From contig QMWA01000021.1 of the NCBI GenBank assembly GCA_003661385.1, forward strand, positions 1-16,061: a stretch of 16,061 nucleotides of DNA, given 5' to 3'. The notes beneath the pieces were generated by a model that was not told where the DNA came from, made no database searches, and was given only the letters and a program-made list of their open reading frames with translations. Below, piece by piece: positions 11,568 to 14,395 of this stretch. The position numbers and the translations under genes are program-made. The number at the start of each line of letters is the position of its first letter. Within the stretch, counting starts at the first letter, position 1. Origin of the DNA: Thermoproteota archaeon (GTDB lineage Archaea > Korarchaeota > Korarchaeia > B14-G2).

Positions 11568-11843
11568 ATGCCTTTCACAGAAGCTAAGCCAGCTAGGAAA
11601 CCAATAGTCCCTAGAGCAGAGGTTAAGCTAAGGGAAGTAGAGATCGTGATAATAGAGAGTAGGTGCAAGGAGTGTGGCTACTGCATTGAGTTCTGCCCTA
11701 GAGGTGTTCTAGAGAAGTCTGAGAAGTTCAACGAGAGGGGCTATCACCCACCTTACGTGAAGTACCCAGAGCTCTGCGTGGGGTGCGGCCTCTGCGAGAG
11801 AATATGCCCAGACTTCGCGATCTACTTGAGAGAGGTGTCCTAG
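11568..11843 (+). CDS. korD: 2-oxoacid:ferredoxin oxidoreductase, delta (ferredoxin) subunit
   Basis: A 91-residue protein with two [4Fe-4S] ferredoxin motifs: C33-x2-C36-x2-C39-x3-C43-P and C70-x2-C73-x2-C76-x3-C80-P. The roughly 25-residue extension before the first cluster and the GYHPPYV stretch between clusters are typical of the separate delta subunit of KOR/POR-type enzymes rather than free ferredoxins. It carries electrons from the TPP-bearing beta chain to external ferredoxin or, here possibly, to HdrA. ATG 11568 has GTGAT three bases upstream and lies about 12 bases after the predicted transcript start. First gene of korDABC-hdrA. It ends in TAG, directly followed in the same frame by korA. 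Confidence 0.9.
11834..11837 (+). promoter_or_regulatory. Ribosome binding site for the CTG start of korA
   Basis: GGTG, within AGAGGTG, lies six bases before CTG 11844, inside the last codons of korD. No ATG, GTG or TTG occurs in the korA frame between 11844 and 11978, so this site most likely serves the CTG. Confidence 0.55.
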
Positions 11844-12995
11844 CTGCCAGCCAAAACCGTTCTTTCAGGAGTACACTTCGAGCAGGGCAACTGGGCTTGC
11901 GCAGAGGGCGCCATAGCAGCAGGCTGCAGGTTCTTTGCAGGCTACCCAATAACCCCCTCAACTGAGATAGCTGAGAGGATGTCGAGACGCCTCCCAGAGG
12001 TTGGAGGCGTATACATCCAGATGGAGGACGAGCTTGCATCCCTTGTAGTAGTCATAGGTGCATCTCAGGCTGGAGCCAAGGCGATGACGGCCACAAGCGG
12101 CCCTGGGTTCAGCCTGATGATGGAGCAGCTAGGCCTTGCCATAATGACCGAGACTCCCTGTGTCCTGGTCAACGTGATGAGAGGAGGGCCAAGCACAGGC
12201 CAGCCTACCAAGGCAAGCCAAGGGGATGTCATGCAAGCCAAGTGGGGGGCTCACGGGGACTACGAGATAATAGCGCTAGCTCCCTCCTCACCTCAGGAGT
12301 TTTTCGACTACACGATAGAAGCCTTCAACCTCTCAGAAACCTACCGGGTTCCTGTCATAGTGCTGGCTGATGAGCGTGTAGCCCACATGAGAGAGAAGGT
12401 TGTGATCCCACCTGAAGACGAGATTAAGGTTGTAAGCAGGAAGAAGCCTAGTGTCCCACCTGAGGAGTACCTCCCCTATGGTAGTGAGGAGCTTATTCCA
12501 CCGATGGCATGCCTAGGTGAAGGCTATCGGGTACACATCACAGGCCTAACACATAACGAGAAGGGATACCCCGATATGAGTGGTGATGTGCATAGCAAGC
12601 TGATATGGAGGATATGCAACAAGATAAGGAGCAATGCGGAGAAGATATGGAGGTATAAGGTGATAGGCTCTGAGAGGCCGGAGGCGACCATAGTGGTCTA
12701 CGGCTCAGCCTACAGGAGCGCAATAAGAGCGTTCAAGGAGGCCAGAAGGGAGGGCTTAAGCGTAGCTCTCCTAAAGATAGAGACTGTATGGCCGTTCCCA
12801 GAGAAGCCTCTGCTAGACCTCAGCGAGACCTCAAAGGGGTTCATTGTGGTCGAGATGAACACTGGGCAGATCCTCAGAGAAGTTCAGAGGGTAGCTGGCT
12901 CAAGTAGAGTAGAGTTCGTATCCCAGTTAGGCGGAGACCTCCCAGATCCACGTGGCATACTCACTAAGATTAGGAGGGTGCTTGACCATGCTTAA
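11844..12995 (+). CDS. korA: 2-oxoacid:ferredoxin oxidoreductase, alpha subunit, CTG start
   Basis: Alpha chain of the enzyme that decarboxylates a 2-oxoacid to acyl-CoA while reducing ferredoxin. From CTG 11844 the product is 383 residues. The family N-terminus GVHFEQGN (9-16), AEGAIAAGCRFF (20-31) and the TPP-pyrimidine motif GYPITPST (33-40) is complete, followed by MEDELASL, TATSGPGFSLM and RGGPSTGQPTKASQGD (113-128), then the C-terminal transketolase-like domain. The first usual start codon, ATG 11979, would delete 45 residues including GYPITPST, so it cannot be the real start. Motifs resemble the 2-oxoglutarate-type alpha chains, but the acid used is not certain. The gene abuts korD without a gap and overlaps korB by eight bases. 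Alternative explanations are readthrough of the korD TAG or a sequencing error. Confidence 0.88.
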   Translation: MPAKTVLSGVHFEQGNWACAEGAIAAGCRFFAGYPITPSTEIAERMSRRLPEVGGVYIQMEDELASLVVVIGASQAGAKAMTATSGPGFSLMMEQLGLAIMTETPCVLVNVMRGGPSTGQPTKASQGDVMQAKWGAHGDYEIIALAPSSPQEFFDYTIEAFNLSETYRVPVIVLADERVAHMREKVVIPPEDEIKVVSRKKPSVPPEEYLPYGSEELIPPMACLGEGYRVHITGLTHNEKGYPDMSGDVHSKLIWRICNKIRSNAEKIWRYKVIGSERPEATIVVYGSAYRSAIRAFKEARREGLSVALLKIETVWPFPEKPLLDLSETSKGFIVVEMNTGQILREVQRVAGSSRVEFVSQLGGDLPDPRGILTKIRRVLDHA

Positions 12996-13848
12996 GCAGG
13001 TGCAGGTTGAACACCCCTTAGATCCCCTCCTACGCATAGATAGGATACCTCACATATGGTGTCCTGGCTGTGGTATAGGGATAGTGCTGAACGCCTTCTT
13101 GAGAGCTCTTAAAGAGCTCAACTTCGACATGGATAGGCTTGTAGTGGTCTCTGGTATAGGCTGTGCTGGGAGAGCAGCTGGCTACGTGAACGCAGACGGC
13201 TTCCACACAACTCACGGCAGGCCAATCCCATTTGCTACAGGAGTCAAGCTTGCAAAGCCCTACCTCAAGGTTGTGGTGTTCAGCGGAGATGGAGACCTGT
13301 TCGCCATAGGGGGAAACCACTTCATCCATGCAGCTAGACGCAACATAGACATGCTAGTCCTCTGTGTGAACAACCAGAACTACGGGATGACTGGAGGCCA
13401 GCTTGGCCCGACCACACCGCTTGACGCCAGGACTTCAACAAGCCCATACGGCAACATAGAGCACCCGTTCAACCTAGTCCACCTAGCAGCTGGAGCTGGA
13501 GCAGTGTACGTGGCGAGGTGGACGGTCCTTCATGTCAGGAGGATGACTGAGTCCATCAAGAAGGCTTTGCTGAAGAAGGGCTTCTCATTCATAGAGGTGA
13601 TCTCCCCCTGCCCAACCCTCTTCGGCAGATATAACAGGATGGGGACAGGCTTAGACATGATGAAGCTCCTGGCCGAGAGGTCTGTTGTAATGAACTTCAT
13701 AGATCCAGCTGAAGCAGTAGTAGACCTCAGAGACAAGATAGTTTGCGGGGAGTTTGTTGACACGGAGAAGCCAGAGTACACAGAGATGGTCTACCGCCTG
13801 ATAAGGGAGAAGTCGGGTAGAGAGGTGACCTCCATTGTCGAGAGCTGA
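12988..13848 (+). CDS. korB: 2-oxoacid:ferredoxin oxidoreductase, beta subunit
   Basis: TPP-binding beta chain, 286 residues from ATG 12988. The cluster-binding cysteines are visible: CPGCG (Cys25, Cys28), GIGCAGR (Cys59) and SPCPT (Cys208). The thiamine diphosphate/Mg site is SGDGDLFAIGG (99-109), with the partner asparagines in NNQNYGMTGGQ (128-138). HTTHGRPIPFATGVKLA (74-90) is the conserved loop preceding it. ATG 12988 has GGAGGGTG seven bases upstream and overlaps the korA stop; the longer in-frame start at 12952 would add 12 unrelated residues. It works with korA at the active site and passes electrons through its own cluster to korD. Confidence 0.94.
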   Translation: MLKQVQVEHPLDPLLRIDRIPHIWCPGCGIGIVLNAFLRALKELNFDMDRLVVVSGIGCAGRAAGYVNADGFHTTHGRPIPFATGVKLAKPYLKVVVFSGDGDLFAIGGNHFIHAARRNIDMLVLCVNNQNYGMTGGQLGPTTPLDARTSTSPYGNIEHPFNLVHLAAGAGAVYVARWTVLHVRRMTESIKKALLKKGFSFIEVISPCPTLFGRYNRMGTGLDMMKLLAERSVVMNFIDPAEAVVDLRDKIVCGEFVDTEKPEYTEMVYRLIREKSGREVTSIVES

Positions 13849-14395
13849 GGTTGTGATCGCCGGCTTCGGCGGCCAAGGCATAATGCTAGCAGGCTACATA
13901 CTAGGCTACGCTGCCACAATATACGACAGGAAGAACGCTGTTCAAATGGAGTCCTATGGCCCTGAGGCGAGAGGTGGGGCAGCTAAAACCGAGCTCATAA
14001 TCTCAACAGAGGAAATAGACTACCCCATAGTGGAGGAGCCCGATATACTGGTGGTCATGTCCCAGGAGGCTTACACAAGATACCACAGCAAGGTCAAGAG
14101 CAATGGCACCCTGATAATAGATGAGGATCTAGTCGACCTGACTCCACCACCCCCACCAGGTGTAAGCGTCTACAAGGTTCCTGCTACCCGCATAGCTGAA
14201 GCCTTAGGCAGGAGAATCGTGGCGAACATGGTGATGCTAGGTGCACTATGTGCCATAACCAAGGTTGTGTCTCCAAAGGCTATGGAGGAGGCGATCAAGT
14301 CGAGGGTTCCGAAGGGAACCGAGGAGCTCAATATCAAAGCCTTCAGAGCAGGATACGACTTCGCCATCAGGCTCATGAGAGGTGAGGTTGATTGA
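13835..14395 (+). CDS. korC: 2-oxoacid:ferredoxin oxidoreductase, gamma subunit
   Basis: Gamma chain of 186 residues. The N-terminal IAGFGGQGIMLAG (8-20) and the ESYGPEARGGAAKTELIIS stretch (39-57) are the family signatures, and the domain binds the CoA substrate. TPPPPPGV (about 108-115) is a proline-rich loop. TTG 13835 has GGTGA six bases upstream (13824-13828) and overlaps the end of korB by 14 bases. The stop TGA overlaps the TTG start of hdrA. The gene order korD-korA-korB-korC is the usual one for archaeal 2-oxoglutarate-type enzymes and completes a four-subunit complex. Confidence 0.93.
   Translation: MSRAEVVIAGFGGQGIMLAGYILGYAATIYDRKNAVQMESYGPEARGGAAKTELIISTEEIDYPIVEEPDILVVMSQEAYTRYHSKVKSNGTLIIDEDLVDLTPPPPPGVSVYKVPATRIAEALGRRIVANMVMLGALCAITKVVSPKAMEEAIKSRVPKGTEELNIKAFRAGYDFAIRLMRGEVD

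Follow-up and report, generated by a model that had tools for sequence, protein, structure and literature searches.

The infC gene of prokaryotes starts at AUU, a codon used for autoregulation. In Escherichia coli a CUG codon gives about 0.9% (0.86%) of the output of AUG, and CUG makes up 0.024% of bacterial initiation codons (both values quoted in PMC11497404). Reinitiation in Haloferax volcanii and E. coli requires that the two genes overlap or lie a very short distance apart, and pairs of this kind show an enrichment of subunits belonging to the same complex (PMC10666635).

We describe a korA gene from a member of the Korarchaeia whose start codon is, on our best reading, a real near-cognate CTG. 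Given the low output and rarity of CUG, it is surprising that a core subunit should rely on it. A first-pass annotation of the locus had called CTG initiation very rare for a core enzyme. The window, that is, the whole stretch of DNA analysed, is 16,061 nt of contig QMWA01000021.1 (assembly GCA_003661385.1). The host genome (G000) comprises 1.74 Mb in 206 contigs, and the genome statistics given below come from a 387 kb sample of it.

The korD-korA junction

Four kor genes lie in the order korD-korA-korB-korC and are followed by a same-strand gene from 14392, with successive spacings of 0, -8, -14 and -4 nt. In a profile search the korA product scores 559 bits with NF006412 (cut-off 411) and 248 bits with POR_N (PF01855). 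By family cut-off, POR_N domain and a GYPITP motif near the N-terminus it is, on sequence grounds, the alpha subunit of a 2-oxoacid:acceptor oxidoreductase; its relatives in the PDB are 1yd7 and 8ys5. The korD product matches Pfam Fer4 and reaches 65.8 bits with OGOR_delta (NF042987), under the curated cut-off, and is predicted to be the delta subunit, a two-[4Fe-4S] ferredoxin, of a 2-oxoacid:ferredoxin oxidoreductase. korC is above the cut-off of its own family, while korD and korB are clear members that fall under the equivalog cut-offs. The gene from 14392 encodes an FAD/4Fe-4S protein resembling HdrA. The features of the locus are as follows.

11568-11843, forward: korD, ORF from ATG 11568 to TAG, 91 aa
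11832-11837, forward: Shine-Dalgarno (SD) match GAGGTG, within the final korD codons, 6 nt 5′ of CTG
11841-11843, forward: korD TAG stop, adjoining korA and in frame with it
11844-11846, forward: CTG, inferred korA start codon, the only one of the first five codons that is one base off ATG; the position of TTG in locus L004
11844-12995, forward: korA, 383 aa, intact and full length (NF006412; POR_N, PF01855)
11940-11963, forward: GYPITPST motif, absent from the product if the start is ATG 11979
11979-11981, forward: ATG, the first canonical start of the korA frame, lying 45 codons too far 3′ and without an SD match
12988-13848, forward: korB, from ATG 12988, overlapping the korA end by 8 nt
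13835-14395, forward: korC, TTG start with SD GAGGTGA, overlapping korB by 14 nt

korD and korA share one frame, interrupted by the TAG alone, and the junction reads GAGAGGTGTCC-TAG-CTG-CCA-GCC-AAA-ACC. CTG is the first codon 3′ of the stop, at an intergenic distance of 0 nt. The korA frame contains no ATG, GTG or TTG upstream of ATG 11979. The first-pass annotation had described the continuous frame, the lack of a canonical start before 11979 with GYPITPST encoded upstream, and a GGTG six bases before the CTG; all of this was borne out with every coordinate correct, the GGTG (11834-11837) being part of GAGGTG.

GAGGTG is a six-base match to the archaeal SD, at a spacing of 6 to the korA CTG. 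A search of the host assembly for an archaeal 16S rRNA, which would have supplied the anti-SD, found none. Of the 2152 interior CTG codons in the genome sample, just 26 (1.2%) are preceded by an SD match of six or more bases at a spacing of 4-9. In the same operon korC has GAGGTGA at spacing 6 ahead of its TTG start. RNA structure around the junction is unremarkable: the SD does sit in a stem, but a hairpin hiding it was rejected as a signal, given a z-score of -0.79 and a stability equal to the operon median.

Homologous starts and a second CTG junction

We collected 110 loci, drawn from relatives and GTDB species genomes; 107 of them contain the GYPITP motif in a frame that can be read. A canonical start lies 27-36 codons 5′ of GYP in 100 of the 107; the window CTG is at -32. 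The other seven comprise four with ATG, GTG or TTG slightly beyond this range, one (L086) clipped at the locus edge, and two with CTG, namely the window and a Thorarchaeota locus (L071). In L004, from the same class as the host, TTG occupies exactly the homologous codon. A conserved run, VL(T/S)GxHF..G..ACAEGAIAAGCRFFA, is shared with relatives from some five codons past the TAG onward, and conservation from about residue 5 places the korA start within the first five codons (CTG CCA GCC AAA ACC), where CTG is the only codon a single base from ATG. Comparison of related korD-korA junctions, a check proposed in the first-pass annotation, shows canonical starts clustering at the CTG position, one further CTG, and no fusion in 107. 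By exclusion we infer that korA would start at CTG, there being no canonical start before the conserved sequence and homologues starting canonically at this place.

Two other readings of the gene bear on this placement. KorA could be a shorter protein made from ATG 11979, the first canonical start in its frame. Because homology sets in only a few residues after the CTG, initiation at 11979 would lose the conserved GYPITPST segment; in all it would cost 45 residues, mostly conserved, and with them the start of the POR_N domain and of the fold that 1yd7 and 8ys5 display. That ATG also has no SD upstream, and we regard its use as extremely unlikely. Alternatively, the locus might be decaying, its korA start codon lost, with a paralogue doing the work. 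The host does carry a second korA (G000:C49:5123-6376, L130), which has an ordinary TTG start with GGTGA upstream. Yet none of korA, korB, korC and the gene after them is damaged, and korA retains both its SD and a start position homologous to that of its relatives, which leaves decay with hardly any probability.

The second CTG occurs in Thorarchaeota SMTZ1-45 (L071, LRSL01000109.1), where the junction is gagaaggaggaaaaa-TAG-CTG-CCT-GAA and the korD end runs into korA as aaggaggaaaaa[TAG]CTG. Six siblings of this locus, with KorA 84-92% identical, also have the korD stop abutting korA, with ATG in five and GTG in one; several keep the same TAG and SD. An in-frame ATG lies five codons 3′ of the L071 CTG, and because this ATG could also serve as the start, the L071 case appears weaker than that of the window.

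Across the 107 loci the korD stop directly abuts the korA start in ten, both CTG cases among them (hypergeometric p 0.008, a post hoc value, with related Thorarchaeota among the ten). The Thorarchaeota and Bathyarchaeota junctions L032, L033, L057, L059, L071, L078, L088, L094 and L095 resemble that of the window in having stop and start abutting in one frame; L071 shares its CTG, whereas the remaining eight start with ATG or GTG.

A sequencing or assembly error is one alternative to a CTG start: if the true base at 11844 were A, G or T, korA would start normally. A single substitution suffices to give ATG, GTG or TTG, the host genome is fragmented (206 contigs), and, counting against a CTG start, both instances are known from metagenome assemblies alone. 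However, the rest of korA is intact and the junction is otherwise free of anomaly, sampled host genes without a canonical start are few, and the TAG/CTG of L071, in an unrelated assembly, would need the identical error to have struck the same codon twice. We consider error unlikely, though less so than any other alternative weighed here.

The shared frame also invites a second reading of the TAG, and the first-pass annotation had suggested that it may be read through to give a KorD-KorA fusion. Nothing except the TAG separates the two genes, and in-frame abutment of stop and start recurs in Bathyarchaeota and Thorarchaeota. Fused loci, however, number 0 of 107, and the KorD C-terminus lies about where it does in relatives whose korD has other stops and frames. 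TAG is the commonest stop in the host, ending 176 of 364 sampled genes (TGA 111, TAA 77), and an ideally spaced SD would have no role in readthrough. A search for PylS gave nothing above the cut-off, and matches below it were taken as other class II synthetases. ARAGORN called a tRNA-Pyl(cta) at G000:C18:5160-5214 (L285); its anticodon arm, CCGGC-CTTCTAA-GCCGG, is that of tRNA-Arg(UCU), misfolded and carrying additional sequence close to the D arm. With no fused loci, TAG the commonest stop, no PylS above the cut-off and the tRNA-Pyl call rejected, the suggestion of a fusion is not supported, and it is very unlikely that a fusion is the main or sole form of KorA. Low-level readthrough of the TAG may occur.

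Other genes without a canonical start

In the host sample there are three genes whose conserved sequence is preceded by no canonical start: korA, rpp29 and that of a Rio1 kinase. We also compared 286 ortholog pairs between two species of the genus Korarchaeum, with a gene filter applied; only rpp29 had a coding-like block ahead of any canonical start.

The RNase P gene rpp29 has an invariant ATA at the required start site, several codons downstream of purine-rich sequence resembling GAGGGG, in 13 species of the genus (L158, L160-L162, L164, L165, L167-L170, L172, L174 and L177). Upstream of the conserved core, twelve of these lack any ATG, GTG or TTG; three of the twelve (L167, L170 and L172) also have a TAA two codons 5′ of the ATA, which is then the sole near-cognate codon. 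Outside Korarchaeum, ATG or GTG usually occupies this site. The host rpp29 (G000:C4:16971-17291, L153) likewise has no canonical start there (GAGGGGGTTAAA ATA). In the open-access literature we found no account of archaeal rpp29 starting at AUA.

The Rio1 kinase gene (G000:C11:18339-19082, L121/L178) has no ATG, GTG or TTG before its conserved region, and most relatives have such codons further upstream; the gene directly 5′ of it was taken for eIF1A. Two further host ORFs, L127:1850-2995 and L114:56-766, both on the reverse strand, are long and coding and have no canonical start in their first 49 and 97 codons, respectively. In L127 a GGAGG lies 8 nt 5′ of a CTG.

These genes have a bearing on annotation. 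Gene finders limited to ATG, GTG and TTG would make KorA 45 residues short and miss its start, and the same limit conceals the rpp29 starts across Korarchaeum.

Proposed reinitiation at korA and related systems

We think it likely that korA is translated from the near-cognate CTG at 11844, served by a strong SD and by reinitiating korD ribosomes. The CTG start proposed in the first-pass annotation gains support from the homologous start position, the SD at ideal spacing and the second CTG instance. The product would be a normal alpha subunit of 383 residues with an initiator methionine and a predicted N-terminus of (M)PAKTVLSGVHFEQGNWACAEGAIAAGCR.

Under this proposal ribosomes translating korD would release at the TAG, be retained by the SD and start again at the codon that follows; GAGGTG, inside the korD end at spacing 6, would position them at the CTG, to be decoded presumably by the initiator tRNA. 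Reinitiation would most likely be the main source of ribosomes for korA and would make a poor start codon tolerable. If independent initiation at the CTG is low, KorA output would be tied to that of KorD and would fall when korD is untranslated, and a rate-limiting role of the CTG for korA is plausible. The first-pass annotation had raised coupling of korA to korD as a possibility, and the 0-nt distance, the SD at ideal spacing, the membership of both subunits in one complex and the second CTG at the same junction all speak for it.

A relaxed initiator tRNA, with an M1-like change, was ruled out as the cause of CUG use, for the initiator tRNA gene in G000:C20 keeps the GGG/CCC pairs of the anticodon stem, the three G-C pairs by which start choice is enforced; the tRNA appears normal and offers no explanation for the CTG. 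This gene (G000:C20:4336-4466, L299) appears to contain an 11-nt intron 3′ of the anticodon, with another insertion close to the T arm; short introns occur in many tRNAs of the host genome.

The occurrence of CTG at the same abutting junction in two distant archaea offers a test case for whether archaeal ribosomes are laxer about the identity of the start codon when they reinitiate than when they initiate afresh. We tentatively suggest, while thinking it rather doubtful, that at an abutting stop in archaea the terminating ribosome and the SD fix the position and so relax the identity of the start codon, allowing near-cognates such as CTG to become fixed, as the two korD/korA junctions would illustrate. 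Put more widely, and just as tentatively, a near-cognate start may be tolerated in the Korarchaeia by a small number of conserved genes (korA with CTG, Rpp29 with ATA).

One described system close to this locus is termination-reinitiation. The distance known to permit it is an overlap or a few nucleotides, and at korD/korA it is 0 nt; with spacings of 0, -8 and -14 nt through korDABC and a shared complex, the pair fits the termination-reinitiation pattern. Like such pairs in Haloferax volcanii (Huber et al. 2019, 2023), it has a touching stop and start, subunits of one complex and an SD in the upstream gene; the commonest overlap there is 1 or 4 nt, whereas korD and korA meet at 0 nt in the same frame and korA has a CTG start. 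With the CUG starts of E. coli (PMC11497404) korA shares a codon one base off ATG. It resembles infC in that a near-cognate codon one base from ATG is chosen by position and SD, and differs from it in having no known autoregulation and in sitting straight behind a stop codon.
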